This document shows positions 21,228-45,422 of a stretch of DNA of 64,000 nt, one piece after another. A program made the position numbers and the translations under genes. The notes under the pieces were generated by a model, which did not search any database, was not told the origin of the DNA, and saw only the letters and a program-made list of their open reading frames with translations. Location: NCBI GenBank assembly GCA_012103315.1, contig WLWZ01000002.1, positions 1 to 64,000 on the forward strand, in the 5' to 3' direction. Each line of letters begins with the position of its first letter. Within the stretch, counting starts at the first letter, position 1. Source of the DNA: Alphaproteobacteria bacterium (lineage in GTDB: Bacteria; Pseudomonadota; Alphaproteobacteria; MPNO01; UBA2964).

Positions 21228-21321
21228 GAAGGAGATGTCAGCCGGGCAGAGATCAAGTGGGAAGAGTTCACACACAATCCTACCCGGCCGTTATCTGCTG
21301 AAGTTATAGTCTCTCGAACGA

Positions 21322-22254: not shown

Positions 22255-22315
22255 TTCAAGTCTCCCTTTTCAAATGGTTTAAATTATCAAACGCCAATTT
22301 TACTAAACTACAACA

Positions 22316-24547: not shown

Positions 24548-26998
24548 TTACGCCCGAAAGCGTTCGCCTTTGGGGTCAAAAGCCGGGCGCAGGTGGGAAG
24601 TGGCGGCGAAGCGCTTGCCCGCAATGTCGATTTCGTAACGACCAGAATCAATATAGTCCCGATCAGCAATCCCATTCGAATTACTGACATAGCCCATAGC
24701 GACGGCACGGCCCAATGTGTGCCCATAGGCGGCGGACGAAACCTCGCCCACAGGCTCACCGTCACGCAGGATTAATTCCTTGCCCCAGGCGATAGGGTCG
24801 GGATCATCAAGGGTGAACTGGACAAGCCGGCGGGTTGCGCCTGTTTCCTTTTGGCGCAACAAGGCGTCGCGACCGATAAAGTCGGTACCCTTGTCCAATT
24901 TGACGGCAAAGCCGAGACCGGCTTCGTAGGGCGTATAATCGGGGGTCAGATCCGCGCCCCACGCCCGATAGCCCTTCTCCAGCCGGAGGGAGTCGATGGC
25001 GTAGTAACCGGCGGTGTGGATATCAAACGCGGCGCCAGCTTCAACTAGAGCGTGGTAGACCGAAACGGCGTCTTCCACTGAGATATAGAGTTCCCAGCCC
25101 AGCTCTCCCACATAAGTAATACGGTGGGCCCGCAAGGTTACTTCCCCGATGTCGATCTCGCGGCAGGTACCGAACGGAAAGGCATCATTGCTAAGATCGG
25201 CACCGCTGACCCCACCCAGCAGATCCCTTGCCCTTGGTCCCATGATTCCAATCACTGCATAAGTCGCGGTGACATCGGTGAGGTTGGCATCGAGGCCAAG
25301 ACCTATATTTCGGCGAATCCAATGGGCATCACGTGTGGACTGAGCGGTGCCGGAGACGATAAAATAGGTGTCCTCGGACAAACGTGTGATGGTCAAATCG
25401 CTTTCATACCCGCCGCGGTCGTTGAGCATACCCGTATAGATGAGCCGACCAGCTTCGACCGCCACATCGTTGGCGCAAAGACGCTGCATTACTGTCTCGG
25501 CATCGCGGCCCTCAAGCAGAAATTTGGAGAACGAGGTCTGGTCAAAAAGGGCAACGGCCTCACGGGCAGAACGGTGCTCCTCGGCGGCGTAGGGGAACCA
25601 GTTCTGACGGCCAAAGGAATAATCGGTTTGGGGTTCGACTCCCTCAGGTGCAAACCAGTTGGGCCGCTCCCATCCCATCTTTGACCCAAAGCAGGCACGG
25701 GCCTCTTTCAGATTCTCGTAGAGCGGCGACTGGCGCAGCGGCCTCGCCGATTCCATTTCGAGGTTGGGCCAGTTCATGGCGTAATGCTTGCCGAGCGCTT
25801 CGACGACACGGTCGGCCAGCCACGTCTCATCGGCATGGAATGGCGCAAAACGCCGAATATCCACCGGCCAGAGATCCATAGTCGGCTCCCCCGCGGCGAT
25901 CCATTCCGCCAGCGCCTTGCCGGCCCCGCCAGCGCTGGCGATACCCATGGAATTCATGCCAGCGCCAACGAAAAAATTCCGGACCTCGGGCGCTTCGCCC
26001 AGAATGAAGTTGGCATCCGGCGTGAAACTTTCCGGTCCGTTCACCATTTGGCGGACTTCAGCGGTTTCCAGCGCCGGCACCCGGATAAGGGCGTTGGTCA
26101 TCAGGATTTCGAACTGATCCCAATCATCTTCCAGCAGAGAGAATTCGAACTTGTCAGGAATTCCCTCCATGCCCCAGGGCTTGGCTTCCGGCTCGAACCC
26201 GCCCATGACCAAACCGCCAACATCCTCCTTGAAATAGATATAGCCGTCGGGATCTCGCAGCACCGGAAGATCGGGGCTAACGCCGTCGATTTCGTTGGTG
26301 ACGATATAGAGGTGTTCAGCGGAATAGAGCGGCACCGAGACACCGCAAAGGCGTCCCACCTGCCGGGCCCATTGGCCGGCGCAGTTGACTACAACGTCGC
26401 AGTTGATAGTTCCGCCATCAGTTGTCACCCCGGTGACGGCGCCGTCGGCAATGTCAAAACCAGTGACACTGACCCCTTCGAAAATTCTCACACCGTTCGC
26501 GCGTGCGCCCTTGGCCAGCGCCTGTGTCACGTCCGACGGGTTGACCTTGCCATCACCGGGAATCCAGACACCGCCGACAAGGTCATCGGTGCGCATCATG
26601 GGCCAGAGCCGCCCGGCCTCCTCAGCGCTAATTACCTCCGCGTCGACACCTTGGGCCCGGGCCGACGCCGCAGTTCGCCTGAGAAGCGTCATTCGCTCAG
26701 CTGTGCGGGCGACGGAAACGCTGCCGCAGCGCTTCCAGCCCGTGGCCTGGCCGGTTTCGGCTTCCAGATTTTCATAGAGGTCGCACGAGTAGCGGATGAG
26801 ACTGGTCAGATTGGAATGCGCCCGCAACTGTCCGACCAACCCGGCCGCGTGCCATGTGGTACCGCAACTTAGCTGCCCCTGTTCAACCAGCACGATGTCC
26901 CGCCAGCCGAGCTTCGCCAGATGATAGGCAACGGAACAACCGACAATGCCCCCTCCAATGATCACTGCGCGGGCATGTGTGGGGAGTGTTTTTTCCAT
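24548..26998 (-). CDS. FAD-dependent dimethylglycine/sarcosine dehydrogenase-like protein with GcvT domain
   Basis: The protein has 816 residues. An N-terminal DAO domain carries GGGIVGCSVAYHLAKLG, and TTWHAAGL whose His is the covalent FAD site in dimethylglycine dehydrogenases. A C-terminal aminomethyltransferase (GcvT-like) half from about residue 430 includes the folate-type segments YVGELGWELY and GYRAWGADLTPDYTPYEAGL. Family knowledge: these enzymes oxidatively demethylate N-methyl amines and hand the one-carbon unit to tetrahydrofolate. In this setting an N-methylated aminophosphonate is an attractive substrate (inference). Dimethylglycine or sarcosine is the default. It is divergent from the metallophosphoesterase operon. 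Confidence 0.82.
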   Translation of the reverse strand: MEKTLPTHARAVIIGGGIVGCSVAYHLAKLGWRDIVLVEQGQLSCGTTWHAAGLVGQLRAHSNLTSLIRYSCDLYENLEAETGQATGWKRCGSVSVARTAERMTLLRRTAASARAQGVDAEVISAEEAGRLWPMMRTDDLVGGVWIPGDGKVNPSDVTQALAKGARANGVRIFEGVSVTGFDIADGAVTGVTTDGGTINCDVVVNCAGQWARQVGRLCGVSVPLYSAEHLYIVTNEIDGVSPDLPVLRDPDGYIYFKEDVGGLVMGGFEPEAKPWGMEGIPDKFEFSLLEDDWDQFEILMTNALIRVPALETAEVRQMVNGPESFTPDANFILGEAPEVRNFFVGAGMNSMGIASAGGAGKALAEWIAAGEPTMDLWPVDIRRFAPFHADETWLADRVVEALGKHYAMNWPNLEMESARPLRQSPLYENLKEARACFGSKMGWERPNWFAPEGVEPQTDYSFGRQNWFPYAAEEHRSAREAVALFDQTSFSKFLLEGRDAETVMQRLCANDVAVEAGRLIYTGMLNDRGGYESDLTITRLSEDTYFIVSGTAQSTRDAHWIRRNIGLGLDANLTDVTATYAVIGIMGPRARDLLGGVSGADLSNDAFPFGTCREIDIGEVTLRAHRITYVGELGWELYISVEDAVSVYHALVEAGAAFDIHTAGYYAIDSLRLEKGYRAWGADLTPDYTPYEAGLGFAVKLDKGTDFIGRDALLRQKETGATRRLVQFTLDDPDPIAWGKELILRDGEPVGEVSSAAYGHTLGRAVAMGYVSNSNGIADRDYIDSGRYEIDIAGKRFAATSHLRPAFDPKGERFRA

Positions 26999-27054
26999 GG
27001 TTTAAGCTATGCTCAAAGAAGAGTTAAAGGCCAATTTTCGCGTATCACCGACTC

Positions 27055-27074
27055 GCAATTTCACTTTGAATTGC
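27055..27074. promoter_or_regulatory. Inverted repeat GCAATT-N8-AATTGC between divergent flavoprotein and phosphoesterase genes
   Basis: A perfect 6-bp dyad with an 8-bp spacer lies in the 159-bp divergent promoter region. Candidate operator for a nearby LysR or other dimeric regulator. No experimental or positional proof. Confidence 0.35.
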
Positions 27075-27157
27075 CAGGTCACCGCGAACCGGTAAGGTAT
27101 GCAGCAGTTACACAGTGGCGCAAAATCGCGATAGCGGCAAATAATGGGGCCCGGAAC

Positions 27158-29203
27158 ATGCCAAGAGACCTTGGAAAAAAACTGTTCACCTATGCGGTGA
27201 TCACGGACACCCACCTGAACCAGGGGGAAACCGATTCCAATTCGGAATTCGAAGTCAACAAGCTGTCCAACGGGCGCATGCGGTATGTGGTTCATGATCT
27301 CAACCGGCGCGATCTGGCGTTCGTCGTTCATCTGGGCGATCTGCTGCATCCGGTTCCTGCCGTTCCGCAGCTCTATGAACAAGCCGCCGAGCGTTTCAAG
27401 GAGCAGGTCGCCGATTTACGCCACCCGCTTCACGTTCTTCCCGGCAATCATGATATCGGTGACAAGCCCATCGATTGGGGGCCCATGGCCATCGTTGAGG
27501 AAAAGTTCATCGCCCTGTGGCGGGAGCATTTCGGCGCCAATTATCGGGCCTTCGATCACGAGGATTGCCGCTTCATTCTGTTCGATTCACAAATCATTAA
27601 TTCCGGCCTGGATGTGGAGGCGGAACAGCGGACCTGGCTTGAAGCCGAGCTGAAATCGGCCACTGGTCAGGGGAAACGGATTTTTCTGAATTGTCACTAT
27701 CCGCCCTTTCTCACCTATCCCGATGAGGAAGAGCATTACGACAATCTTGCTGATCCCGGCCGGGCCTGGCTCCTGGACCTGATTGAACGTCACAAGGTAG
27801 AGGCCCTGTTTGCCGGGCATGTGCACAATGTCTGGTACAACCATCACCGGGGAACGGACTTTTACCTTCTGCCGTCGACCGCCTTCGTGCGGCTGGATTA
27901 TTCCGAGATCTACCGGGTGGTGCCCACCACGGAAATGCAGTCGGGGCGGAACGACACCGGCAAGCTAGGATATTTTCTGGTCCATGTTTACGACAGCGGT
28001 CATATCTGCGAATGGATCAGGACCTACGGCGAAGTCTCGGAGCCCGAAAAGGCAGCGCTGGAAACACGGGATCGCGTGGCCACCATTCATCCGCGCCAGA
28101 ACTGGAATATCCGCTTCGGGCTCGATATGCGCCAGAACTGGCTTGAGGTGATCGAAGTCCCGCCGTCCGGCGCGCTGGATGAATTCGACCGCAAGCGAAC
28201 CCGCAATGATTATGCGCTGATGGCCTTGCTGGATATGGGGGTGAGACGGTTGCGAATCCCGCTGCGGGACCTGCTCGATCCGGCGCATCGCAAACGGTTG
28301 GAGGATTGCGCAAGGCAAGGCATTCGCTTCACCCTGTTCTCGTTCGGTGTTCCCAATAGCCAGGTCCTGGAAGCGGTCGGAAACGCCGGGCATTTAATCG
28401 ATATCTGGGAGATTGCCGACAGTTTCAAAAACCTGCCCAGAACCCTGCAAGCCATATCAAGCACGGCCGGTGCTGCAGGCATCGCACTGTTTGTGACCAA
28501 GTACCGTTCCGCCAATGACATTGTGCATGGCAGCAAGAGTTTTTATCACACGGGTAGTCACGGCTTTATCCCCGATGAAGTTGAACAATTCGCCACCGTC
28601 GCCGGTTGGGAGGACGCTTCCGGTGTCATCTTCCGTGTCCCGGGTGAAATTGCGCCGTGGGAGGCAGCGCAGGAGGTTGCCGCTAATTGCCTGACACACG
28701 GGCTCAAGGCGTCGCTCCATATCCAGATGACCAGCGGAAGCCCGGGGTCGGAACCGCCCGACGATTCCTGGGTGGCAAATCGTGTTGCGGAGGCTCTTGC
28801 CGTCTCTGCCGCCTATGGCGACCTGTATGTCTATCTGGATACATTTTCGGATGTGGATCGCGGTTACTACAGGCGTCATGGAGTCGTAGATCGATTCTTC
28901 AATCCGCGGCCCGCCTATCACGTGGTCCGGCATATGAATGGGATCCTTGCCGACGGTGTGAATGAACAGACCAACGACGTGTTCATGCCCGGTGCGGACG
29001 ACGGGGCAATTTCTTTCGTGGGTGAACAAAACCGACATTATTGTCTTGTCTCTCCTCAAAGTTCACCGACCATTGAGGGAACGTCGGAATCAGGCTGGTT
29101 AGTCGATCTCTTGTCTGGGGAACGCGTGTCAGCGAAACTGACTGAAGAGGGCTTTAATTCCAAGACACCGTCAGACCTATGCCTGTGGATGCCCGGTGAC
29201 TAG
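27158..29203 (+). CDS. Calcineurin-like metallophosphoesterase with additional ~350-residue C-terminal region
   Basis: I start at ATG 27158 (681 residues), because further upstream the frame only overlaps the opposite-strand flavoprotein gene. The dinuclear-metal phosphoesterase motifs are complete: Asp17/His19 (DTHL), Asp61 (GDLLH), Asn97/His98 (GNHD), His180 (CHYPP) and His221/His223 (GHVH). After residue ~330 the chain continues with an alpha/beta region (MGVRRLRIPLRDLL, IRFTLFSFGVPN) that suggests a TIM-barrel-like domain, although I do not recognise the family. It precedes the PbfA-like gene by 43 bp. A role in releasing a phosphonate from an ester, or otherwise preparing it for PhnW/PhnA, is an inference. 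Confidence 0.75.
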   Translation: MPRDLGKKLFTYAVITDTHLNQGETDSNSEFEVNKLSNGRMRYVVHDLNRRDLAFVVHLGDLLHPVPAVPQLYEQAAERFKEQVADLRHPLHVLPGNHDIGDKPIDWGPMAIVEEKFIALWREHFGANYRAFDHEDCRFILFDSQIINSGLDVEAEQRTWLEAELKSATGQGKRIFLNCHYPPFLTYPDEEEHYDNLADPGRAWLLDLIERHKVEALFAGHVHNVWYNHHRGTDFYLLPSTAFVRLDYSEIYRVVPTTEMQSGRNDTGKLGYFLVHVYDSGHICEWIRTYGEVSEPEKAALETRDRVATIHPRQNWNIRFGLDMRQNWLEVIEVPPSGALDEFDRKRTRNDYALMALLDMGVRRLRIPLRDLLDPAHRKRLEDCARQGIRFTLFSFGVPNSQVLEAVGNAGHLIDIWEIADSFKNLPRTLQAISSTAGAAGIALFVTKYRSANDIVHGSKSFYHTGSHGFIPDEVEQFATVAGWEDASGVIFRVPGEIAPWEAAQEVAANCLTHGLKASLHIQMTSGSPGSEPPDDSWVANRVAEALAVSAAYGDLYVYLDTFSDVDRGYYRRHGVVDRFFNPRPAYHVVRHMNGILADGVNEQTNDVFMPGADDGAISFVGEQNRHYCLVSPQSSPTIEGTSESGWLVDLLSGERVSAKLTEEGFNSKTPSDLCLWMPGD

Positions 29204-29246: not shown

Positions 29247-30647
29247 ATGAACCATCCAAGCACCGAGGAAGCCCCGTTTCGTCCTTCCGAGTCGGAAGGC
29301 GAGGTAAACGACTCGCCGGTCAGATCGAGCTGGGCTGAGAATAATCACGGGCCCGCCACACGAGATCTGGTGGCCCGTGATGCGTCGTATTTCCTCCGTC
29401 AATCCCTGTCGACACCCTGCCTCAGCGCCATCCGCAAGGCGGAGAATATCTGGATCGAGGATATGGACGGCCACCGGTACAGAGATTTTCATGGCAACAA
29501 TGTCCACCATATCGGGTATGGCCATCCACGGCTCAAAGAAGCCATCAGCCGCCAAATGGATGAACTTCCTTTTTCGCCGCGGCGTTTCACCTGTGAACCG
29601 GCCGTTGCCCTGGCAGAGAAGCTTACTACCCTTGCGCCGGGTGAATTGAGCAAGGTGCTGTTCACAACGGGCGGGTCCGACGCCGTCGAAGTGGCACTCA
29701 AAGTCGCCCGCATCGCGACGGGCCGTTTCAAGACCGTATCCTTTTGGGATTCTTTTCACGGGGCGGGGTTTGGCGCGTCGTCAGTCGGCGGTGAACAGCT
29801 TTTTCGCTCGGGATCAATCGGGCCCTTACTGCCCGGCAACGAGCATATCCCGTCCTTTGGCGCCTATCGCAATCCCTTCGGTATCGATCACCGGAGAGAG
29901 AGCCCAAAGGACAATGAAGTGGGCGATCTGGTGGCCAATATCCTGCGCTATACGCTGGAGCGCGAAGGCGATGTGGCCGCAGTCATCGCCGAACCCAACC
30001 GGGCAGTGCCGTACATTCCGCCGCCTGGTTTCTGGCAGCAGATCCGGCAGGCCTGCGACGACTTCGGCACACTCCTGATCTTCGATGAAATTCCCACCGG
30101 GCTCGGCAAGACCGGTCGTATGTTTGCCTGTGATTATGATCAGGTCGTGCCGGATATTCTGGTCATGGGAAAGGCGCTGGGTGGTGGAATCCTCCCCATC
30201 GCTGCGGTCCTGTGCAAACCCGAGCTCGACGTTGCCGATCAATATGCGATTGGCCACTACACCCACGAGAAAAACCCGGTAACGACCCGGGCGGCCCTAA
30301 CCACGATTGAGATCATCGAGGACGAGGACCTTGTTGAGAACGCGGAAAAGGTCGGCGACTGGGCTCTGGAGCGCATGAACGACATGATGGACCGCCTCGC
30401 CCTGATCGGCGATGTAAGAGGCCGAGGCTTTCTTTTGGGACTCGAGCTCGTCACGGATCGGGACACCAAGGAACCGGCGAAGACGGCAGCCGAGCAGGTC
30501 TTTTACCGGGCACTTGATAAGGGACTAAGCTTCAAGATCTCCATGGGCTCGGTCCTCACCCTGACACCGCCGCTGGTCACCACCCAGGAGCAAATGGAAG
30601 AGGCGCTCGCGATCCTAGAGAGCGCAATCGCGGAGACGACACATTAA
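29247..30647 (+). CDS. Class III aminotransferase-fold PLP enzyme, PbfA-like (1-hydroxy-2-aminoethylphosphonate ammonia-lyase candidate)
   Basis: The protein has 466 residues, with GAGG 8 nt before the ATG. Class III signature residues: PLP-contacting Asp280 (LLIFDEIPTG) and Schiff-base Lys309 (VMGKALGGG). The N-terminal stretch, with ARDASYFLRQSLSTPCL and MDFHGNN-like DFHGNNVHHIGYGHP, is what I associate with PbfA, the enzyme of phosphonate clusters that eliminates ammonia from (R)-1-hydroxy-2-aminoethylphosphonate to give phosphonoacetaldehyde. That product feeds PhnY/PhnA nearby. An ordinary omega-transaminase is the alternative. It lies in an operon between the phosphoesterase and the DAO-type flavoprotein. 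Confidence 0.7.
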   Translation: MNHPSTEEAPFRPSESEGEVNDSPVRSSWAENNHGPATRDLVARDASYFLRQSLSTPCLSAIRKAENIWIEDMDGHRYRDFHGNNVHHIGYGHPRLKEAISRQMDELPFSPRRFTCEPAVALAEKLTTLAPGELSKVLFTTGGSDAVEVALKVARIATGRFKTVSFWDSFHGAGFGASSVGGEQLFRSGSIGPLLPGNEHIPSFGAYRNPFGIDHRRESPKDNEVGDLVANILRYTLEREGDVAAVIAEPNRAVPYIPPPGFWQQIRQACDDFGTLLIFDEIPTGLGKTGRMFACDYDQVVPDILVMGKALGGGILPIAAVLCKPELDVADQYAIGHYTHEKNPVTTRAALTTIEIIEDEDLVENAEKVGDWALERMNDMMDRLALIGDVRGRGFLLGLELVTDRDTKEPAKTAAEQVFYRALDKGLSFKISMGSVLTLTPPLVTTQEQMEEALAILESAIAETTH

Positions 30648-34254: not shown

Positions 34255-34324
34255 GTGCTGTGAAGATGCCAGTGTCGACGGGGCTTTCCTGTTGGCAGAA
34301 GCCGGGAAAACAGGCCACAGAACC

Positions 34325-35506
34325 ATGCCGTCAAGCAACCAGAAACCCCAACTGAGGGAAACATCATCGGCCCGCGAACCGGCGCCGGCAGACCCTTATC
34401 TCTTAACCCCCGGACCGTTGACGACGTCGTTGCGCACCAAACAGGCCATGCTGCGCGATTGGGGATCCTGGGATCTTGATTTCAACCAGGTCACAGCGGA
34501 AATCAGACAACGATTGACAGCCATGGCGCAGGGTGGTGATGCGTATGACTGCGTGCCCATGCAGGGGAGCGGTACGTTCTCGGTGGAGGCCGCGCTGGGC
34601 AGTTTCATCCCCCGCGATGGCAAAGCGCTGGTGCTGATGAATGGCGCCTACGGGCAACGGGCTGCTAAGACTCTCGACTATATCTCACGCGACTATGTAA
34701 CTTTGGACAAGGGTGACTATCTGCCGCCACTGCCCGGCGAGGTGGATGAAATACTCACGGCAGACCCGCATATCACCGATGTTGTTCTGGTCCATTGCGA
34801 GACCAGCTCCGGAATCCTCAACCCCCTCAAGGACATATCCGATGTAGTTCAGCGCCACGGCAAGCGGCTGATCGTGGATGCCATGAGTTCCTTCGGCGCC
34901 GTGCCATTGCATACCACCGAAGTGCCCTTCGAGGTCATGGTTTCCTCCGCCAACAAATGTATAGAAGGCGTCCCCGGCTTCGGATTCATTATCGCCAAGA
35001 AAACCGCCCTCGAAGCGGCCAAGGGGCGCAGTTTCTCGCTTAGTCTCGACGTGCATGACCAGTGGGTGTCCATGAACAAGACGGGTCAATGGCGCTTCAC
35101 ACCCCCCACCCACACAGTGGTGGCTTTTTACGAAGCGTTGTTGCAGCACGAGGAAGAGGGCGGCGTTTCCGGCCGGTTGGCTAGATATAGCCGCAACCGG
35201 GATGTCCTGGTCGCTGGTATGCGGAAAATTGGATTTGAAACTTTGCTCGACGACGAATGGCTGTCGCCCATCATCACGACATTCATGTCCCCGGCGGATC
35301 CTAATTTCGAATTCAAGCGTTTTTACGACGAGATCAAATCCCACGGGTTCATCATTTATCCGGGCAAATTGACAGAAGTCGATAGTTTTCGGGTGGGATG
35401 TATCGGGCAGCTTGATGAGCAAGTGATGCAAGGGGTCGTTGAAGCGATTCACCAATCTCTCCGCGCCATGGGTGTAACAAGCCCTAAGCCAACTATCGTC
35501 CTATGA
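34325..35506 (+). CDS. phnW: 2-aminoethylphosphonate:pyruvate transaminase
   Basis: The protein has 393 residues from ATG 34325. An upstream TTG at 34292 would add 11 residues and is less likely. It is a class V aminotransferase with LLTPGPLTTS at the N-terminus, GSGTFSVEA phosphate-cup, PLP-Asp185 (IVDAMSSFG) and Schiff-base Lys211 (SSANKCIEGVPGFGF). Family knowledge: PhnW converts 2-aminoethylphosphonate plus pyruvate to phosphonoacetaldehyde plus alanine. PhnY and PhnA, encoded 17 kb away on the other strand, finish the pathway. An 8-bp inverted repeat (CCTAAGCC/GGCTTAGG, 35483-35515) straddles the stop codon. Confidence 0.93.
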   Translation: MPSSNQKPQLRETSSAREPAPADPYLLTPGPLTTSLRTKQAMLRDWGSWDLDFNQVTAEIRQRLTAMAQGGDAYDCVPMQGSGTFSVEAALGSFIPRDGKALVLMNGAYGQRAAKTLDYISRDYVTLDKGDYLPPLPGEVDEILTADPHITDVVLVHCETSSGILNPLKDISDVVQRHGKRLIVDAMSSFGAVPLHTTEVPFEVMVSSANKCIEGVPGFGFIIAKKTALEAAKGRSFSLSLDVHDQWVSMNKTGQWRFTPPTHTVVAFYEALLQHEEEGGVSGRLARYSRNRDVLVAGMRKIGFETLLDDEWLSPIITTFMSPADPNFEFKRFYDEIKSHGFIIYPGKLTEVDSFRVGCIGQLDEQVMQGVVEAIHQSLRAMGVTSPKPTIVL

Positions 35507-35712: not shown

Positions 35713-36345
35713 ATGGCGAAGTCTGACAACATTCTCGCTTCGGCCTCTGATGACGATGCCGAAACCACCCTATCGGCGTCCGTGGATATGGATACACCGA
35801 CCCATCGAGGCGACAGCATTGCAGCGTTGCTTTGCCTGGTTGGCGGTCTTGTCGGATATTTCCTGATCGTTCCGGCGGCCGTTTACGTGCCTCCCCAGTT
35901 TGCCGGTACCGCTAATTCGCCAGCATTTCTGCCTAACGTTCTATTTCTTATACTCGCTGCGTTGGGTTTCATTTATTTGGTCTACAGCGTAGCCGCGCAA
36001 CTTCGGAATCCGACTCAGGGGTGGGCCCATCCTTCGGACTGGCTATTGGCTGGCGGCACCGCACTTATCTGCGTCGGCTATGTATTGTTCATTTTCGGTA
36101 TCGGAATGACACTCGGCTCAGCTCTCTGCGTTGCCGTTACGATGATTTATTTTGGTGAGCGCCGACCGTGGTTAATTGGCGCGATCACCGTCATTCTGCC
36201 GGCACTATTGTGGTATTTCTTTGTCAAGGTTGCCCATATCCTGCTGCCCCCCTCTTGGCTCGGCATTATGGACTGGTTAGAGGCAGGAATCACACACGAT
36301 GGAATGACAAGAATGGCGGGTTTCATCACCTCGCTCGGGACGTGA
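35713..36345 (+). CDS. Tripartite tricarboxylate transporter, small membrane subunit (TctB family)
   Basis: The protein has 210 residues. A hydrophilic ~35-residue N-terminus is followed by four to five transmembrane helices, as in TctB proteins. The start is uncertain: ATG 35713 lacks a ribosome binding site, and ATG 35788 is an alternative. Family knowledge: TctB pairs with TctA in the inner membrane to import organic anions delivered by a TctC protein. It is followed after 12 bp by the large subunit. Confidence 0.82.
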   Translation: MAKSDNILASASDDDAETTLSASVDMDTPTHRGDSIAALLCLVGGLVGYFLIVPAAVYVPPQFAGTANSPAFLPNVLFLILAALGFIYLVYSVAAQLRNPTQGWAHPSDWLLAGGTALICVGYVLFIFGIGMTLGSALCVAVTMIYFGERRPWLIGAITVILPALLWYFFVKVAHILLPPSWLGIMDWLEAGITHDGMTRMAGFITSLGT

Positions 36346-36357: not shown

Positions 36358-37869
36358 GTGATTGAGTTCGACCAACTCCTTCAAAGTGTCCCATTGGTTC
36401 TCCGTTGGGAAGTGTTGGCAGCGTGCCTAGGTGGCGTTATCTGGGGGATGTTTGTTGGGGTCACGCCAGGCCTGACCGGAATTATGGCGGTTGTCATTGC
36501 CTTGCCACTTACATTTTTTATGGATCCGCAGACAGCCATTGCGCTGTTGCTTGGAATCTACGTGACGGCGATTTACGGAGGCTCGGTCACCGCCATAATG
36601 ATCGCGACTCCGGGCACCCCCAATGCCGCTGCGACAGTTTTGGATGGCTACCCGCTTGCACGCCAAGGCAAAGCCCGTCAGGCTCTTGAGATGGCGCTTT
36701 ACGCCTCATTCACCGCCGGCATTCTGTCAACTGTGGTTGCGCTGTTAATTTTCCCAATCGTCGCTAATGTCGCACTCGCCTTCGGCGCTGCTGAAGTCTT
36801 CGCAGTAATTGTGTTTTCAATTACCATCATTGCCGGTGTTTCGGGAGATTCCCTGCTTAAAGGAATGATTGCAGCGTGTTTCGGGTTCTTAGTGGCAACG
36901 ATTGGTCAGGATCCCATTCACGGATCCAGTCGTTTTACTTTTGGGGTTCACGATTTTCAGGCCGGCATGCACATTCTGACTCTTCTTGTGGGTTTGTTCA
37001 CGATACCTGAGATCATTGTCCGAGGTATTGAAGCGTACAAGGCGCGAAATACGGCGACAGTTGGCGATATGGGGGAGAGTATGACATTCCGCCAGTACCT
37101 CAGCTATTGGCGGACTTATATCAGATCCTGCATTGGCGGCTCGTTGCTCGGCGCCCTGCCAGGGCTTGGCGGCAGTCCGGCTGCCTTTCTGGGCTATTCG
37201 GTAGCTCAACGCTTTTCAAAAACCCCGGAGAAGTTTGGGAAAGGGTCTTTGGAAGGTATCGCTGGTGCTGAGGCTGGCAATAATTCGGTCTGTGGCCCAG
37301 CTCTCGTTCCTATGATGTCGCTCGGCATCCCGGGAGATACGACGACAGCAGTGCTGATGGGTGCACTGGTCATTCACGGGCTCAACCCGGGCCCAATGCT
37401 GTTCGAAGAGGCCCCGAACTTCGTATACAGCGTTTTCCTGCTGCTCTTCATCAGCCTAATCTTTCAATTGGGGGTTGGGTCTGGTGTTGTCCGTATGGCC
37501 AAGTACGTTGTACGCATGCCCACCCAAATCCTGTTTCCCGTGGTTCTGATTTTGGCGACGTATGGAACCTACGCCGTACGCGGCACGATGGTCGACGTCA
37601 TATCAATGTATGCCATCGGTTTTCTAGGTTTCTTGATGCGCATTCAAAAGATTCCAGCCGCGCCCTTTGCCATCGCTTTTATTCTCGGGCCCTTATTTGA
37701 GAATGAGTTGCGCAAGTCATTGATTATCTCCGGCGGTTCTCTTGAAATTTTCGTGGATAGTGGAATTTCGATAACATTCCTGACCCTCGCTGCGTTGAGT
37801 GCAGGCGCCTCGGTTTATTTTCATCGGCGTCTTAAGGGGTCGAATGCTGCAAAATTTATTACCAACTAA
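36358..37869 (+). CDS. Tripartite tricarboxylate transporter, large permease subunit (TctA family)
   Basis: The protein has 503 residues, starting at GTG 36358 with GGGAG 7-8 nt upstream. About eleven to twelve membrane helices are visible. TctA hallmarks: GVTPGLTGIMAVVIALPLTF near residue 32 and GALPGLGGSPAAFLGY, with IPGDTTTAVLMGAL, near residues 260-335. Inner-membrane sodium- or proton-coupled permease. Located directly after phnW, so its substrate may be a phosphonate or a carboxylate partner (inference). Confidence 0.92.
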   Translation: MIEFDQLLQSVPLVLRWEVLAACLGGVIWGMFVGVTPGLTGIMAVVIALPLTFFMDPQTAIALLLGIYVTAIYGGSVTAIMIATPGTPNAAATVLDGYPLARQGKARQALEMALYASFTAGILSTVVALLIFPIVANVALAFGAAEVFAVIVFSITIIAGVSGDSLLKGMIAACFGFLVATIGQDPIHGSSRFTFGVHDFQAGMHILTLLVGLFTIPEIIVRGIEAYKARNTATVGDMGESMTFRQYLSYWRTYIRSCIGGSLLGALPGLGGSPAAFLGYSVAQRFSKTPEKFGKGSLEGIAGAEAGNNSVCGPALVPMMSLGIPGDTTTAVLMGALVIHGLNPGPMLFEEAPNFVYSVFLLLFISLIFQLGVGSGVVRMAKYVVRMPTQILFPVVLILATYGTYAVRGTMVDVISMYAIGFLGFLMRIQKIPAAPFAIAFILGPLFENELRKSLIISGGSLEIFVDSGISITFLTLAALSAGASVYFHRRLKGSNAAKFITN

Positions 37870-37940: not shown

Positions 37941-38930
37941 ATGCAACATAATGGAAAATTAGGATTGTTGACGACGGCGCTAGTAACCGCCGGATTGATG
38001 GCTGCGACATCGGCCGTCGCGGGTGAGTACCCCGATAAACCGATCAAGCTTGTCGTTGCATCAGGGGCCGGTGGCTCGACTGACACTGCGGCTCGGATTA
38101 TGGCAATCAATATTCAGGACCATTTGGGCCAGCCCATCATCGTCGTAAATAAAAAGGGTGCTTCCGGCGGCATCGGTATCAACTTCGCATTGAAAGGCAA
38201 GCCAGACGGCTATCTGTTGATGGAAGGGATGATTGGCGGCCACGTTCTTCACCCGGCCATGAACACATCGACCGGGTATACACCGGCAGATTATACGCCC
38301 ATCGCGATGACTCAGATGAATCCAAATGTTCTGATCGTCAAAGCGGACTCTCCGTACAAGAACCTCGGCGACCTGCTCGGCGCAATTAAAGCCAAGCCGG
38401 GCAAGCTGAAATTTTCTCACGCTGGAGCCGGCAGTATCCATTACTTTGGCATTCACCTTCTGTTAAAGACAGCGGGATTGGGCAAGAATTCTGCAGTTTC
38501 CATTCCGTACAAGGGTGGCAAGCGGTCCATGGCTGGTCTCCTCCGCGGCGAGGCTGACTTCCACCAGACCAATCTGGTGTCGGCCATTAGCTTCATCAGG
38601 GCTGGCAAGGTGCGTGCTCTGGCGGTAACAACTAAAAAGCGCCTAAAAGGCTTTCCCAAAGTGCCGACCTACGCGGAATTGGGATATCCCAAAGTGGACA
38701 TCTTTGGTTGGCGCGGCGTAATTGGACCAAAGAACCTGCCTCAGGCAATCGTCGATAAATGGGCGAAAGCTGTCCAGGCCACAATGAAGCGCAAGGGCTG
38801 GAAGAAGATGGTCAAGGCCGTAGGCGATGTTCCCCGCTACATGGGGCCTGAAGAGTTCACAAAGCACATCGCAAGCGACTTCAAGCGCTATCGCGCAATG
38901 GCGACGGACTTGGGTATCCTCGTCAAGTAA
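37941..38930 (+). CDS. Tripartite tricarboxylate transporter periplasmic binding protein (TctC/Bug family)
   Basis: The protein has 329 residues with a strong GGAGG ribosome binding site. The signal peptide ends near AVAG (residue ~28). The Bug-family core follows: YPDKPIKLVVASGAGGSTDTAAR, VVNKKGASGGIGI, and KPGKLKFSHAGAGS. Family knowledge: these proteins bind small carboxylated anions, and Bug proteins as a group are often redeployed to new ligands. It is the last gene of the TctB-TctA-TctC set, closed by a strong hairpin. Confidence 0.92.
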   Translation: MQHNGKLGLLTTALVTAGLMAATSAVAGEYPDKPIKLVVASGAGGSTDTAARIMAINIQDHLGQPIIVVNKKGASGGIGINFALKGKPDGYLLMEGMIGGHVLHPAMNTSTGYTPADYTPIAMTQMNPNVLIVKADSPYKNLGDLLGAIKAKPGKLKFSHAGAGSIHYFGIHLLLKTAGLGKNSAVSIPYKGGKRSMAGLLRGEADFHQTNLVSAISFIRAGKVRALAVTTKKRLKGFPKVPTYAELGYPKVDIFGWRGVIGPKNLPQAIVDKWAKAVQATMKRKGWKKMVKAVGDVPRYMGPEEFTKHIASDFKRYRAMATDLGILVK

Positions 38931-38948
38931 TTTAAGCACGTTAAATGG

Positions 38949-38971
38949 CGGGCGTCCGCGATGGACGCCCG
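38949..38971 (+). terminator. Strong hairpin after the tctC-like gene
   Basis: CGGGCGTCC / GGACGCCCG form a 9-bp perfect stem with a 5-nt loop 18 nt past the stop codon. No U-tract follows, so it may act as an mRNA-stabilising or Rho-assisted terminator. It also argues against translation of the next gene beginning this far upstream. Confidence 0.55.
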
Positions 38972-39077
38972 TCACCCTTATGGGCGTACCCGTTCGCGGG
39001 TCCCATGTACGACATTTCCTCAAGCTGAGCATAAATCCGTGGGCAAAATTACAGAGCGCAACACTGATCAATCCACC

Positions 39078-41258
39078 ATGGAGACATGGGGTTCGGTGAC
39101 CATTTCACCGACCGACGATGTTGTTGTTGGCAGTTTCTCCACCTGGACCCTGACCTTTACGGTAGGCGCCTACGCTATGGATGTAGGCGGCGGTCTCAAG
39201 ATCGGCACACGGCGTCAGGCCGATTTCGGCTCTCCCCAGTTCGATGACCCGACGGCTGATAACTATGCCTCCGTTAGCTGCTCCCGGGAGGGGACCCGGT
39301 TCGACTGTAAATTCGATCATCGTGGCCACAAGCGACCCTTCAACGCCGTTACTGTGATCCGGCTCGCTGCAGGCCCGCTTTATCCAGGCGATACCATCAC
39401 TGTCGTTCTGGGCGACACGTCAGGCGGCTCCCGCGGGCTCGCGGTCCAATCCTTTCCTGAGGCGGCCAGTGATTTCGCGGTTTTCATGGATCCGCTCAGT
39501 TCCGGCGAATACAAACGCGTGTATTGCGCCTCGCCTCATTTCCAGATTCTTACCGGCCCGTCCGAGTATTTCACCGTGGTCGCACCCACCCTTGTCCAGT
39601 CGGGCAAGCCGTTTCGCGTTCAACTGCGCGGCAATGACAGGTTCGGCAACCCGACGCCGGTTACCGCACCCAATCTTACCCTGGGCGCCGACCCGGCCGT
39701 TGACGTCAGCCTGTCCGAGAGCAATGTCCGGGCCACATGGGTCGACGGGATAATCCTGCATAAAGAGGGCGTGCACAGGCTGGAACTCAAGGATGGGGGC
39801 ACCGTCCTTGGCACGAGCAATCCCATCGTGGTGCGCGAGAGGACCGACGAGATAATCTGTTGGGGCGACACACAGGCACAGACGGCATCGACCGTCGGCG
39901 TGGGCACGCCCGATGAGTATTTTGCTTACGCCCGCGACCTGGCAGCTATCGATTTTACCACCCATCAAGGCAATGATTTCATTCTGTCAGATGCGGATTT
40001 GGAGGAGGTTCGCCAGGCGGCGAAGAAATACAATGAACCTGGCCGGTTCGCTGCCTTTTTCGGCTGGGAATGGTCCGGTCCAACCGGTACTGGCGGCGAT
40101 CGCAACGTGATGTTTCTCAATGATGAAGGCCCCATCTACCGAAGCAGCCACTGGCAGCTGTGGGACGAGGAACTGGCAGAAAACGCCAGCGAGACCGAAT
40201 GTCTCCACGCCCGCGATCTACAGGATAAGATGCGGGCGTACATCGCGGAGACAGGCCATAAGGTCATCATGGTGCCCCATATTGGCGGCCGGCGGTCCGA
40301 TTTCGAGGTCCAGGATCCGGAGCTCGAACCGGTTTTCGAAATCTGCTCCAACCATGGCGTGTTCGAGTGGCGCTTGCATGAATTTCTCGCAGCTGGCGTT
40401 CGGGTTGGTATCGTCGGCGCCAGTGATGACCACACCTGCAGGCCTGGCCTGGCTTACCCATCAACCCCGGAAATGACCATCCTCGGCGGACTCGGCGCCG
40501 TCTATGGCCGTGAAGTCAGTCGCAAAGGTATTTATGATGGAATGATGGCCAGACAATGCTATGGCACCACAGGTGCGCGCCTGTATCTTGACGTTTCCGT
40601 CAATAAGCACGCCATGGGACAGGCCTTCAAGGCGGACGGAACGCTACGCGTGAGCGGGACAGTCCACGGGACTGCACCCATCGAATCCATCAGTCTTTTC
40701 AACCGCAGCGAGGAGCTGAAACGCTTCCAGCCCAACCCCAAAACGCGGGATCCGGCCCGAATCAAGATCATCTGGTCCGGCGCCACCCATCAGGACCGAG
40801 GCCGCTTCATGACATGGGATGGCGGACTTGAGATGACCGGCGGCAGCATCACGGGAGCGGCGCCACTAAACATATTCACCGCCAAATACGGAATCGATGA
40901 TTGGGGGGAGCAGCATGTCCGCTGGCGGTCCGTCACCTCGGGTCAAGAGGAAGGCGTGCTCCTCGAAATCGATGCCCCCGATGATGCGGTGGTTTCATTC
41001 GACGCGGGCCCGGCGAAATTGGAGTTCACCCTAGGCCAGGCGCGATCCGAAGATTTGCGTTGGGACCTGGGCGGTCTCGAACAATATGTGACCGCCAGCA
41101 CCCTGCATACCGAAGACGGCACCTGCGACGCCGATTTCGAATTCGTGGACGAGGCACCGGGCAATGAGGAACAGGCCTATTGGGTACGGGTGGTGCAGAC
41201 CGATTTCCACCGCGCCTGGAGCAGCCCCATATATGTTGAACCGACGAAAGGGCCGTAA
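39078..41258 (+). CDS. DUF3604-like (PHP-related) protein of unknown function
   Basis: The protein has 726 residues from ATG 39078. The frame is open back to 38961, but that part overlaps the hairpin. The N-terminal ~230 residues look beta-rich (WGSVTISPTDD, WTLTFTVGAYAMD). From ~residue 250 the DUF3604 pattern appears: CWGDTQAQT where relatives have GDLHxHT, DFTTHQGND, FFGWEWSG, MVPHIGG, EICSNHG and GASDDHTCRPG. Family knowledge: DUF3604 proteins resemble PHP-domain metal hydrolases but are uncharacterised to my knowledge. It starts a tight operon with an FGly hydrolase (5-bp gap) and an aminotransferase, probably acting on one substrate (inference). Confidence 0.7.
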   Translation: METWGSVTISPTDDVVVGSFSTWTLTFTVGAYAMDVGGGLKIGTRRQADFGSPQFDDPTADNYASVSCSREGTRFDCKFDHRGHKRPFNAVTVIRLAAGPLYPGDTITVVLGDTSGGSRGLAVQSFPEAASDFAVFMDPLSSGEYKRVYCASPHFQILTGPSEYFTVVAPTLVQSGKPFRVQLRGNDRFGNPTPVTAPNLTLGADPAVDVSLSESNVRATWVDGIILHKEGVHRLELKDGGTVLGTSNPIVVRERTDEIICWGDTQAQTASTVGVGTPDEYFAYARDLAAIDFTTHQGNDFILSDADLEEVRQAAKKYNEPGRFAAFFGWEWSGPTGTGGDRNVMFLNDEGPIYRSSHWQLWDEELAENASETECLHARDLQDKMRAYIAETGHKVIMVPHIGGRRSDFEVQDPELEPVFEICSNHGVFEWRLHEFLAAGVRVGIVGASDDHTCRPGLAYPSTPEMTILGGLGAVYGREVSRKGIYDGMMARQCYGTTGARLYLDVSVNKHAMGQAFKADGTLRVSGTVHGTAPIESISLFNRSEELKRFQPNPKTRDPARIKIIWSGATHQDRGRFMTWDGGLEMTGGSITGAAPLNIFTAKYGIDDWGEQHVRWRSVTSGQEEGVLLEIDAPDDAVVSFDAGPAKLEFTLGQARSEDLRWDLGGLEQYVTASTLHTEDGTCDADFEFVDEAPGNEEQAYWVRVVQTDFHRAWSSPIYVEPTKGP

Positions 41259-41263
41259 CCGGT

Positions 41264-42649
41264 ATGAGCGGATCTAAACCAAACCTGATATTCGTATTCG
41301 CTGACCAGCTGCGCGCGTCCTCGGTCGGGTATGCTGGCCAGGAGGCCGTGCGGACGCCCAACATCGACGCATTTGCCGAATCCGGCGCCCAATATGCCAA
41401 CGCTGTCTCCATGTTGCCGGTCTGTGGCCCCTATCGCGGCTCTCTAATCACCGGCCGCACGCCGACCTCAACCGGTCAGGTCATCAACGATGTAAAGCTT
41501 AGAACCACAGAGGTGAGTATTGCGCATTGTTTCAAGGCGGCCGGTTACGACACGGCCTATGTGGGCAAGTGGCATCTGGATGGCCCGAACCGTCCCGCGC
41601 CGGTGCCGCCGGGGCCAAGGCGGCAGGGTTTCGAGTACTGGATGGGCGCCAATTTCGAGCACAATTACAACCGGTCCTACTTCACCGACAATGATGGCAA
41701 TTTGAAAATATGGCGGGATTGGGATGCCGAAGCCCAGACCAGCCATGCCATCGATTACTTGAAAGAGCGGGACAGCCAGAATCCGTTTTGCCTTTTCCTG
41801 TCCTGGGGGCCCCCACACCACCCGTACCGGCTTGTCCCGGAACGCTATCTGGACATGTATGATCCCGAGGCTATCCAAGGTAGACCCAACTGTCCGGACG
41901 TACCCAAAGAGGATTTGCAGGGCTACTACGCGCAGACCACTTTCCTCGACGATCAGTTCCAGCGTCTGCTCGATGCGCTGGATGACATGGGGATCGCCGA
42001 CAATACAATTGTCGTCTTCACCTCCGATCACGGTGACATGCACGGCTCCCACGGGGTCTACAAAAAACAGTGGCCCTGGAACGAGGCCATCAAGATACCG
42101 TTCGTCATCCGGTACAACGGCGTGGTGCCACAGGGCGCAAAAATAGAAGAACCGATCAACGTCATCGATGTTATGCCCACGCTTCTCGGGCTTGCCGACG
42201 TGCCCGTGCCAGATACGGTGGAAGGGGTCGATTTGTCACCCTATCTGACGGGCGCCCAGGAAGATCCGCCGGAATCGGTGTTGATCATGAATCCGTGTCC
42301 GTTTTCCATCGGCGATCCAAGGGGCGAAGACCAGTACCCCGATTACAAGGGCATGCGGTTCGAGTACCGGGGCGTCATTACCGCGCGCTACACCTATGTC
42401 CGGACCATCGATCAGCCCTGGCTGCTATACGACAATTTGGACGACCCCTACCAGATGACCAACCTTATCGACGATCCGAAACATTCTGATACGCGCGACC
42501 GTCTTGACGGGCTGATGCGGGCCCACATGGATCGTATCGGCGATGAGATGCATCCCCGGGATACTTACTACAAAAGATTTGGCATCGAGTTCGACCATCG
42601 GGGCAAAGTCGTCGATCTGGTGGAGAATATTTACAACCGATCGGGGTGA
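41264..42649 (+). CDS. FGly-dependent sulfatase-family hydrolase (sulfatase or phosphonate/phosphate esterase)
   Basis: The protein has 461 residues. Metal-site Asp14 (FADQLR) and the formylglycine motif CGPYR (Cys54-Arg58, C-x-P-x-R) followed by GSLITGR show a type I sulfatase catalytic centre. GKWHLDG, WGPPHHPY and TSDHGD complete the active site. Family knowledge: FGly enzymes of this fold cleave sulfate esters, but some are phosphonate monoester hydrolases. The phosphonate context makes the latter possible (inference). Cytoplasmic, with no signal peptide. Its stop overlaps an alternative GTG start of the next gene. Confidence 0.82.
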   Translation: MSGSKPNLIFVFADQLRASSVGYAGQEAVRTPNIDAFAESGAQYANAVSMLPVCGPYRGSLITGRTPTSTGQVINDVKLRTTEVSIAHCFKAAGYDTAYVGKWHLDGPNRPAPVPPGPRRQGFEYWMGANFEHNYNRSYFTDNDGNLKIWRDWDAEAQTSHAIDYLKERDSQNPFCLFLSWGPPHHPYRLVPERYLDMYDPEAIQGRPNCPDVPKEDLQGYYAQTTFLDDQFQRLLDALDDMGIADNTIVVFTSDHGDMHGSHGVYKKQWPWNEAIKIPFVIRYNGVVPQGAKIEEPINVIDVMPTLLGLADVPVPDTVEGVDLSPYLTGAQEDPPESVLIMNPCPFSIGDPRGEDQYPDYKGMRFEYRGVITARYTYVRTIDQPWLLYDNLDDPYQMTNLIDDPKHSDTRDRLDGLMRAHMDRIGDEMHPRDTYYKRFGIEFDHRGKVVDLVENIYNRSG

Positions 42650-42666
42650 GACAGGAGTCTGACGCA

Positions 42667-43944
42667 ATGAACCCGTTAATCGAACGCGCTGCTAAGGTAT
42701 TTCCCGGCGGGACGTCCAATGGCGAGTTTGGATTGCCACCTGAGCAGATCGTGGTCATGGAACGGGGCGAGGGATGCCGCCTTTGGGACAGCGATGGCCG
42801 CGAATTCCTGGATTTTTCCATGGGATGGGGATCGTGCCTCGTGGGTCATGCTAATCCCGACGTGGTCGAGGCCGTGGGCAAACAGGTGCCGCAGGGTTCC
42901 AACTTCTCGTACCTCAACCCACACGCGCTTGCAGTTGCCGAAGAAATCGCGCGCGTCGCGCCCGCCGCTGAGCGCCTGCGGTTCTGTGCATCGGGAACCG
43001 AGGCCAACATATACTGCCAAAGGCTGGCCAAGGGCTACACAGGCAAATCGAAGCTCCTGAAATTCGAAGGCGCTTACCATGGCGCGAACGAGCCGGGGGT
43101 GACCAGTTTGTTCCCGACCCAGCTCCTCGATTTCCCTGAACCGGAACTGACCAGCGCTGGCACCCCCATGGCGAAGTTCGACCTGCTGGTTGCGCCATAC
43201 AACGATTTGGAGATCGCACGGAAGATCGTCTCGGAACACGCCCATGAGCTGGCAGCCATCATCATGGAACCCCTGCAGCGATGCACGCCACCGAAAGAGG
43301 GTTACCTGGAAGGGATTCGGTCGCTGTGTGACGAATTTGGCCTGCTTTTGGTTTTTGACGAAGTGGTGACCGGTTTTCGCCTCGCCTATGGCGGCGCACA
43401 GGAATATTACGGCGTCATTCCCGACCTGGTCGCCTACGGTAAAGGGCTGGGCGGTGGATATCCCATCGGGGCGGTGGCCGGTCGCGCCGACATCATGAAC
43501 TGGTTCGACGAAGAGCGTATCGGGTCAGATAACTATGTCTGGATGGCGTCTACGTTGGGCGGCAATCCCATTTCCATGGCGGCCGCCAATGCTACCCTGA
43601 CAGTCCTTCGCACGCCCGGCACGTACGAAAGATTGCATGCGCTGGGCAAGTACTTCCGAAACTCACTTGCTCGGGTCCTGCGAGACCGACAGATTACGGG
43701 GCAGGTCATCGGCGATGGTCCCTTGGCCCAGATCGTTTTCTCACCGGACCCCGTCAACGATTATCGCTCGACGGCCAAGGGCGATAAGGAACGGGGCCGC
43801 CGGATGATGCTGGGATTATTCGAGCGCTGCGTGTTCCTGAACCCCATGGGGACAAAGCTTTATTTGTCCATCGCCCATGACGAAAACGTCTGCGATCAGT
43901 TTTGCGAACGGCTGGACGATATATTCTCGAAATCAGAAGACTGA
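42667..43944 (+). CDS. Class III aminotransferase, glutamate-1-semialdehyde aminotransferase-like
   Basis: The protein has 425 residues from ATG 42667, with AGGAG about 10 nt upstream. GTG 42646 would overlap the sulfatase stop. PLP residues: Asp231 (LLVFDEVVTGFR) and Schiff-base Lys259 (AYGKGLGGG). The N-terminus (FPGGTSNGEFG) resembles HemL-type aminomutases and related omega-transaminases, but the surrounding catabolic genes argue against a heme role. Probably removes or moves an amino group on the unknown substrate of this operon (inference). Confidence 0.8.
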   Translation: MNPLIERAAKVFPGGTSNGEFGLPPEQIVVMERGEGCRLWDSDGREFLDFSMGWGSCLVGHANPDVVEAVGKQVPQGSNFSYLNPHALAVAEEIARVAPAAERLRFCASGTEANIYCQRLAKGYTGKSKLLKFEGAYHGANEPGVTSLFPTQLLDFPEPELTSAGTPMAKFDLLVAPYNDLEIARKIVSEHAHELAAIIMEPLQRCTPPKEGYLEGIRSLCDEFGLLLVFDEVVTGFRLAYGGAQEYYGVIPDLVAYGKGLGGGYPIGAVAGRADIMNWFDEERIGSDNYVWMASTLGGNPISMAAANATLTVLRTPGTYERLHALGKYFRNSLARVLRDRQITGQVIGDGPLAQIVFSPDPVNDYRSTAKGDKERGRRMMLGLFERCVFLNPMGTKLYLSIAHDENVCDQFCERLDDIFSKSED

Positions 43945-44092: not shown

Positions 44093-45343
44093 ATGTCTGC
44101 TGCGCGACTTATCGGTGTTGTCTTTATGGCGCAACTGTTGGCCCAGATCGGGGCGTTTACGGTGCCAGCGCTGCTGCCCATTTTTATAGATAGCTGGGAG
44201 CTGAGCCATACAAAAGCTGGCTGGCTAATTGGGGCCTGGGCCGGCGCCTATGTGTTGGCCGTCCCCATATTGGTGAGCTTAACTGATCGCGTAGATGCGA
44301 AAAAAATTTATTTGGTTTCGATTGCGCTGACGACCATGACCCACATTGGTTATGCGTTATTTGCAGATGGATTTTGGTCGGCATTTTTCTTGCGGGCGGT
44401 GGCAGGGATGTGTTGGGCGGGGACCTATATGCCGGGGCTCAAGGTGCTGTCCGACCGTTTGGAAGGAACGGCACAGACAAGGGGCGTGTCGTGGCATGCG
44501 GCTGGTGTAGGCCTTAGCGCCGCATTTTCATTCCTGATCTCCGGCCTAGTTTCTGACTGGCTTGGCTGGCACTGGGCTTTTGGCGTTGCCGGAATATGTA
44601 CGACAATCGCCTTCTTGATTATGTGGTTGGGTGTACCTGATCACGCACCTACGGTTATTCGGACCAAACACAAACGTCCAGCATTACTCGATTTTCGTCC
44701 AGTCCTGAGGAACCGTTCAGCGTTAGCCTATTCGCTGGCCTACTGCGCCCATGGGTGGGAAATGTTTGCGTTTGGATCCTGGGCGGTAACATTCCTGACA
44801 TTTACCGCAATTTCGTTCGGCGGGACATCGGACTTATTAGGGCCCACATCGGTGGCCTTTGTGATGGGATTGTTGGCGACCTGGTCAAGCGTTGCCGGCA
44901 ATGAATTATGCATCCGCTTCGGTCGTCAGCAGGTCGTCCTGTGGATTATGATCTCGACCATGATGGTAGCAGTGACTATTGGGTTGTTTTCCGCCATCGG
45001 ATATGGAGCGGCGGTAGTTTTGAGCATAATCTATAGCTCATTGATCTACGGCGATTCATCGGCGTTAACAGCGGGGGCATCCGGGAACGCCGAGCCGGGG
45101 CAACGGGGGGCAACCCTGGCAGTACACTCGACCTTCGGTCATTTAGGCGGATTCGTGGGGCCATTGGTAATAGGTATCATCCTTGATTTGGCTGGTAGCG
45201 AAAGCGTCCTTGGCTGGACGCTCGCGTTTGGTCATCTGGCAATTGTTATGATTGTTGGCATTGTCGCAATCGCCTATCTTAAACCTAAAGATCTGCCCGG
45301 CGATCATCCGGTGCATGGCAAAGTAAAGAGGCCTTGCCGATAA
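44093..45343 (+). CDS. MFS transporter
   Basis: The protein has 416 residues, about twelve transmembrane helices and the typical loop 2-3 motif region (SLTDRVDAKKIY). Only two bases separate its stop from the CCA end of the tRNA-Arg on the other strand. It is separated from the aminotransferase by 148 bp without an obvious terminator. Substrate unknown. Possible uptake or efflux carrier for the preceding operon. Confidence 0.82.
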   Translation: MSAARLIGVVFMAQLLAQIGAFTVPALLPIFIDSWELSHTKAGWLIGAWAGAYVLAVPILVSLTDRVDAKKIYLVSIALTTMTHIGYALFADGFWSAFFLRAVAGMCWAGTYMPGLKVLSDRLEGTAQTRGVSWHAAGVGLSAAFSFLISGLVSDWLGWHWAFGVAGICTTIAFLIMWLGVPDHAPTVIRTKHKRPALLDFRPVLRNRSALAYSLAYCAHGWEMFAFGSWAVTFLTFTAISFGGTSDLLGPTSVAFVMGLLATWSSVAGNELCIRFGRQQVVLWIMISTMMVAVTIGLFSAIGYGAAVVLSIIYSSLIYGDSSALTAGASGNAEPGQRGATLAVHSTFGHLGGFVGPLVIGIILDLAGSESVLGWTLAFGHLAIVMIVGIVAIAYLKPKDLPGDHPVHGKVKRPCR

Positions 45344-45345: not shown

Positions 45346-45422
45346 TGGTGCACCCGACAGGATTCGAACCTGTGACCCCAGGATTAGGAATCCTGTGCTC
45401 TATCCTACTGAGCTGCGGGTGC
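45346..45422 (-). tRNA. tRNA-Arg (anticodon CCT)
   Basis: Cloverleaf on the minus strand: acceptor GCACCCG/CGGGTGC, T-arm with GGTTCGAATCC, anticodon stem CAGGA/TCCTG enclosing loop TTCCTAA with anticodon CCT, discriminator A and encoded CCA. 77 nt including CCA. Reads AGG codons as arginine. Confidence 0.95.

Follow-up and report, generated by a model that had tools for sequence, protein, structure and literature searches.

The enzymes of the sulfatase group are catalytically promiscuous; among them, choline sulfatase carries the active-site residues Asp14, Gln15, Cys54, Asn75, Lys102, His104, His201, Asp296, His297, and Lys309, and the phosphonate monoester hydrolase RlPMH has nine of the eleven active-site residues in common (PMC5870055). 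The way in which phosphonate esters of marine dissolved organic matter are hydrolyzed is still to be established (PMC5649143). DUF3604 proteins have no function assigned in Pfam and are treated in a single paper of the literature searched. Here we analyzed a 64,000-nucleotide stretch of an Alphaproteobacteria bacterium (the window; contig WLWZ01000002.1 of assembly GCA_012103315.1, positions 1 to 64,000), in which three intact plus-strand genes encode a DUF3604 protein, a sulfatase with the motif CGPYR, and a class III pyridoxal phosphate (PLP) aminotransferase, here called AT3. In the original prediction, made from the sequence alone, it was suggested that these products could release and deaminate an amino-alcohol or aminophosphonate from a sulfate or phosphonate ester. 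Coordinates and family scores bear out the three adjoining genes, which are separated by 5 and 17 bp. The conserved unit, an undescribed combination of known families, is TctBAC-DUF3604-sulfatase; a phosphodiesterase and a dehydrogenase are frequent partners and AT3 is a local addition.

Eight close orthologs of the DUF3604 protein (74-85%) came from a single scan across 84,980 genomes, and two further ones, G306 (57%) and G628 (79%), from genome searches; the relatives are mostly draft metagenome-assembled genomes. The set that recurs in these ten other alphaproteobacterial loci consists of LysR, TctBAC (or PhnDCEE), DUF3604, usually the sulfatase, and often a metallophosphoesterase (MPE) and a Zn-alcohol dehydrogenase (ADH). 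The order LysR, MPE, importer, DUF3604, sulfatase, ADH is found in L034 (importer TctBAC) and L036 (PhnDCEE); L076 has LysR, MPE, TctBAC, DUF3604, and sulfatase, L039 has LysR, TctBAC, DUF3604, and sulfatase, and L041 has TctBAC, two DUF3604 genes, and sulfatase. In L038 the sulfatase gene lies beyond LysR, on the far side from TctBAC-DUF3604; L040 has LysR, MPE, TctBAC, and DUF3604 before the contig ends; and from L033 only 4.4 kb are available, which span TctA, TctC, DUF3604, and the first part of the sulfatase gene. L035 and L037 have LysR, TctBAC, and DUF3604 without sulfatase, and no sulfatase match was found in these two genomes at E 1e-60. TctBAC or PhnDCEE lies immediately 5' of DUF3604 in all ten loci (in L033 only TctA and TctC are visible before the contig end), and the importer is thus the most constant partner, followed by the sulfatase, which is within or adjoins the module in seven of the nine informative loci, including one pair at 57/64% identity. 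Since this pairing recurs in most of the orthologous loci, the tight DUF3604-sulfatase linkage exceeds chance. AT3 was not found in any of the ten loci, though several contigs are short, and its orthologs lie scattered at other sites; for this gene, such scattering is what the original prediction had named as its refutation. The proposed joint function holds for the DUF3604 protein and the FGly (formylglycine) hydrolase but is not supported for the trio as a unit, whose predicted boundaries also left out the conserved partners TctBAC and MPE. That the three genes are unrelated neighbors with no joint function is very improbable: the missing AT3 would fit it, but for the DUF3604-sulfatase pair it is refuted by the recurrent linkage.

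The flanking genes differ from locus to locus (where annotated, they include Hsp90, TPR, and Sel1 proteins), and the module thus forms a self-contained, mobile unit. Of the 385 alphaproteobacterial genomes sampled, a relative this close to the DUF3604 protein of the window is present only in G306 and the window genome itself, a narrow occurrence that fits patchy horizontal spread. DUF3604 relatives of any type are widespread (34 of the 385 genomes), and their co-occurrence with PhnW is not significant (10/33, p 0.08). No description of the module arrangement or of its DUF3604 clade was found in the literature searched.

The sulfatase (PF00884, 182 bits; cut-off 25) contains the motif C54-G-P-Y-R58 and a complete class I sulfatase active site of eleven residues (D14, Q15, C54, R58, N75, K102, H104, H185, D255, H256, and K268), among which K102 and H104 are invariant. 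In phosphonate monoester hydrolases this Lys/His pair is reportedly replaced by Tyr and Thr, a replacement that is absent here, and the PehA model NF045661 gives 142.8 bits against a cut-off of 900. Choline sulfatase was considered as an identity and rejected (TIGR03417, 175 bits; cut-off 433). Because the active site is of the sulfatase type and these scores are far below their cut-offs, sulfate is the likelier leaving group. We favor hydrolysis of a sulfate ester over that of a phosphonate ester, although the phosphonate setting makes the latter a serious alternative; the promiscuity of the group may leave a phosphonate or a diester as substrate. No signal peptide was seen by eye and the enzyme is probably cytosolic, so that hydrolysis of an imported small ester would be the economical reading. 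The same contig encodes a homolog of the formylglycine-generating enzyme (C14:213635-214357; PF03781, 210 bits), and two more are present in the genome, although PF03781 also includes relatives with other functions.

The importer upstream of DUF3604 is formed by TctA and TctB beside a binding protein of the TctC type; NCBIfam yielded no match to TctA or TctC. In phmmer searches of PDB, TctC matched TctC/Bug structures with up to 151 bits, and several of these proteins are carboxylate binders, with ligands such as terephthalate and quinolinate. In L036 this slot is occupied by PhnD, PhnC, and two PhnE proteins, with TIGR02315, TIGR01097, and, for the binding protein, TIGR01098 over cut-off. As a phosphonate-type importer thus takes the place of a carboxylate-type importer before the same enzymes, we infer an anionic substrate with both carboxylate-type and phosphonate-type features.

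The DUF3604 protein (PF12228, 56 bits; gathering cut-off 20.4) belongs to a family that retains D305, H309, E344, H414, E434, D463, and H465. Its start was predicted at ATG 39078; we place it 13 codons upstream at GTG 39039, because MGKITERN opens every ortholog and translation of the window from this GTG gives VGKITERN. Motif I of the PHP (polymerase and histidinol phosphatase) type is QxQ in the window protein and its ten clade mates (11/11), HxQ in 22 others, and HxH in two divergent sequences, and the QxQ clade is monophyletic in the tree (support 1.0). The motif-I histidines are lost in this clade, and its metal site is probably remodeled. The CehA/McbA model NF038032 reaches 38.5 bits (cut-off 80). 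Neither a sequence search nor a profile search with 29 DUF3604 sequences gave a convincing PDB relative, and a scan of viral contigs yielded no further relatives. Distant relatives (28-36%) on plasmids occur near TctABC in Sulfitobacter, near an annotated phosphosulfolactate synthase in the haloarchaeon Natrinema and in Chelativorans (L093 and L095, the former also having a TauE exporter). Others are close to ssuD/sfnG in Azospirillum or to TauE, the latter in Agrobacterium vitis as well as in Natrinema. This distribution hints at a connection of the wider family with organosulfur acids.

Upstream of the module lies a complete hydrolytic phosphonate cluster, i.e., PhnY, PhnA, PhnE, PhnC, a PhnD-family binding protein, PsrA, PbfA, and PhnW, each over its curated cut-off, so that the PhnW, PhnA, and PhnY set (PhnWAY) is present. 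The phnW gene is followed, after a 206 bp gap, by genes for TctB, TctA, TctC, DUF3604, sulfatase, AT3, and a major facilitator superfamily (MFS) transporter, all on the plus strand. In two sibling species of the genus, DNA similarity ends near 11.5 kb or earlier and picks up again at a tRNA-Arg gene; region 11524-45345 (about 34 kb) is not common to the siblings, in which different DNA of about 7-12 kb takes its place. The phosphonate cluster and the trio are therefore both in a species-variable, tRNA-linked region. No integrase was recognized among the open reading frames (ORFs), and no exact copy (at least 14 bp) of the tRNA 3' end was found in the window as an attachment repeat. Coincidence at such a tRNA hotspot could also account for the phosphonate neighbors, with the module drawing carbon from an ordinary aromatic sulfate or an ordinary sulfated carboxylic or sugar acid. 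The variable island, the carboxylates bound by TctC relatives, and the best PDB matches of the sulfatase (arylsulfatase and glycosaminoglycan sulfatases) would agree with this explanation, but neither the PhnDCEE exchange in L036 nor the MPE would obviously be needed, and we consider it unlikely.

The MPE gene of the window adjoins pbfA, and its orthologs (53-57%) sit inside the module, next to TctB or PhnD, in L034, L036, L040, and L076. The metal ligands are intact and the only PDB matches are GpdQ-type phosphohydrolases (2zo9/3d03, which we take to be GpdQ); in Cupriavidus and Variovorax, homologs at 34-36% have a TctC gene as neighbor. The true start is probably further in, at MPRDLGKK. 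The C-terminal half has no Pfam match and appears TIM-barrel-like by eye. For the ADH of L034 and L036, the nearest model is the phosphonate-associated HpnZ. These partners, together with the adjacent PhnW/PhnA/PhnY/PbfA/PhnCDEE cluster and the PhnDCEE of L036, make a phosphonate link plausible, as the original prediction had allowed. The sulfatase-fold enzyme would then be a phosphonate monoester hydrolase and the MPE a phosphodiesterase, and the aminophosphonate or amino-alcohol that they free would be deaminated by AT3, PhnW, or PbfA into the phosphonoacetaldehyde pathway. We assign this possibility a minor but appreciable weight, since the hydrolase keeps the sulfatase active site with K102 and H104, and the annotated flanks of the stand-alone copies in L076 and L078 are free of phosphonate genes.

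The same possibility draws on the distribution of AT3, a class III enzyme (PF00202, 213 bits) with the catalytic K259 within a GKGLGGG motif. Its closest PDB relatives are glutamate-1-semialdehyde aminomutases (HemL), from which it differs by a score below the TIGR00713 cut-off (323 bits against 527) and by a gene context that is not haem synthesis; the PbfA model NF049939 (cut-off 525) is not among its best 25 families, all of which score at most 323 bits. AT3 orthologs (62-70%) were found in six sampled genomes, and PhnW is over cut-off in all six as compared with 75 of 385 overall (19%; Fisher p 4e-5), or in 4/4 when counted by genus (p 9e-4), although these statistics ignore genome size and relatedness, from which the association may stem. 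Two genomes, both of one genus, have pepM, ppd, and a CDP-alcohol transferase-like gene 5-6 kb away from AT3, whose nearest neighbors there are a molybdopterin oxidoreductase and, as assigned by eye, a TauE-like protein and putative subunits of a CoA-transferase. The company of CoA-transferase, TauE-like protein, and molybdopterin oxidoreductase in L130, L131, and L132 (one genus) resembles a sulfur-metabolism setting. AT3 homologs at 42-45% accompany dimethylglycine-dehydrogenase-like oxidoreductases and Rieske oxygenases, and once stand beside sulfatases and TctCA. Replacement of PhnW by AT3 in phosphonate-making genomes was considered and rejected as stated: three AT3 genomes positive for PepM also encode PhnW. 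AT3 probably acts on a substrate other than 2-aminoethylphosphonate (AEP); the PbfA authors reasoned likewise about an additional class III enzyme that accompanies PhnW (PMC8154272).

We propose, with moderate confidence, that the locus encodes a mobile module of marine bacteria for uptake and cytosolic hydrolysis of a small anionic ester, desulfating in action and lying beside an AEP pathway, with AT3 as a separate local recruit. TctBAC or PhnDCEE would import the ester intact, the DUF3604 protein would hydrolyze one linkage via its modified PHP metal center, and the sulfatase would remove sulfate via the hydrate of formylglycine-54, possibly in this order. The released alcohol or amine would pass to dehydrogenase or PLP-dependent steps, and AT3 would probably interconvert amine and aldehyde. 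Several findings weigh against this proposal. L035 and L037 retain TctBAC-DUF3604 without sulfatase, which is thus not strictly required; the QxQ motif might mean that the DUF3604 protein is catalytically altered or dead; the PhnDCEE exchange and the MPE point to phosphorus and not to sulfur; and AlphaFold2 gave a pLDDT (predicted local distance difference test) value of 45 for DUF3604 (7 close orthologs) and 44 for the sulfatase (5 orthologs). A broader and likewise unlikely idea is an undescribed marine catabolic pathway in which a sulfate- and/or phosphonate-esterified metabolite would enter intact via TctBAC or PhnDCEE. The DUF3604 protein with its remodeled QxQ metal center, the sulfatase, and the GpdQ-like phosphodiesterase would break it down in the cytosol and so feed sulfur and phosphonate metabolism together, and AT3 would be a further transaminase, used for an aminophosphonate other than AEP. 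The conserved operon, by tying one DUF3604 clade to a specific importer and a sulfatase, opens the function of this clade to testing, and the module is a candidate, not proven, for hydrolyzing the phosphonate esters of marine dissolved organic matter.

Features of the module and its surroundings in the window
Feature	Coordinates	Strand	Evidence or remark
tctB-like small membrane subunit	35713..36345	+	module core; orthologs 44-64%, equivalent position in 8 loci
tctA large permease subunit	36358..37869	+	module core; equivalent position elsewhere, 77-86% identity
tctC periplasmic binding protein, signal peptide by eye	37941..38930	+	module core; 73-88% identity in orthologous loci
12-bp perfect hairpin without T-tract, tctC/DUF3604 intergenic	38946..38974	+	fold z -3.4; perhaps an mRNA-stabilizing or attenuating element
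DUF3604 (PHP-like) putative metallohydrolase, 739 amino acids, motif I QxQ	39039..41258	+	PF12228; start set by orthologs
FGly sulfatase, family S1, CGPYR, probably cytosolic	41264..42649	+	PF00884 and active-site residues
HemL-like class III PLP aminotransferase AT3, local addition	42667..43944	+	PF00202; TIGR00713 below cut-off; catalytic Lys259
MFS transporter, last gene before tRNA, possibly co-transcribed	44093..45343	+	PF07690
tRNA-Arg (CCT), right edge of variable region	45346..45422	-	ARAGORN; kept in siblings
GpdQ-like metallophosphoesterase (MPE)	26921..29203	+	PF00149; PDB matches; module orthologs elsewhere
pbfA	29247..30647	+	NF049939 655 bits, cut-off 525
phnW, AEP:pyruvate transaminase, directly upstream of tctB	34292..35506	+	TIGR02326, TIGR03301, NF010006 over cut-off
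phnY and phnA (phosphonoacetaldehyde dehydrogenase, phosphonoacetate hydrolase)	15885..18629	-	TIGR03250, TIGR02335 over cut-off
phnE, phnE, phnC, phnD, and psrA iron alcohol dehydrogenase	18698..23464	-	TIGR01097, TIGR02315, TIGR01098, TIGR03405 over cut-off; second phnE by context

Some further observations concern the surroundings. A dimethylglycine/sarcosine-dehydrogenase-like FAD (flavin adenine dinucleotide) enzyme, possibly for N-methylated substrates, is encoded at 24548-26998 inside the phosphonate island. Phosphoenolpyruvate (PEP) mutase, an enzyme of phosphonate synthesis, is over cut-off in the four nearest sampled relatives (G210, G300, G104, and G378) and not in the window genome (G000), which holds the degradation cluster. 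A second sulfatase gene just past the tRNA (45473-46930) belongs to the conserved backbone. A type I secretion ATPase-permease gene at 6325-8019 is apparently split into two ORFs (6325-7056 and 7153-8019) by a frameshift or an assembly error.

Compared with the hydrolytic PhnWAY/PbfA pathways (PMC8154272, PMC10590968, PMC12366243), the window shares phnW, phnY, phnA, pbfA, psrA, a DAO-family FAD oxidase, and PhnCDEE; the parts of these papers that were examined make no mention of DUF3604, sulfatase, TctBAC, or metallophosphoesterase. With the CehA/McbA and DUF3604 PHP-like metallohydrolases, the DUF3604 protein has PF12228 and the residues D305, H309, E344, H414, D463, and H465 in common, whereas its clade has QxQ for HxH and long N- and C-terminal regions beyond the motif-bearing part. 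The sulfatase belongs with phosphonate monoester hydrolase/PehA (SulfAtlas S1_0, PMC5066984) to the alkaline phosphatase superfamily and shares the CxPxR, DQ, and DH metal motifs, and is set apart from it by the Lys/His pair and the low NF045661 score. BetC of choline-O-sulfate catabolism in Sinorhizobium meliloti (PMC5870055) resembles the module, as proposed here, in the uptake of a small sulfate ester and in its hydrolysis by an FGly sulfatase, and the eleven active-site residues are the same; the window sulfatase is about 50 residues shorter than BetC (512 residues), and its module adds DUF3604 and TctBAC.

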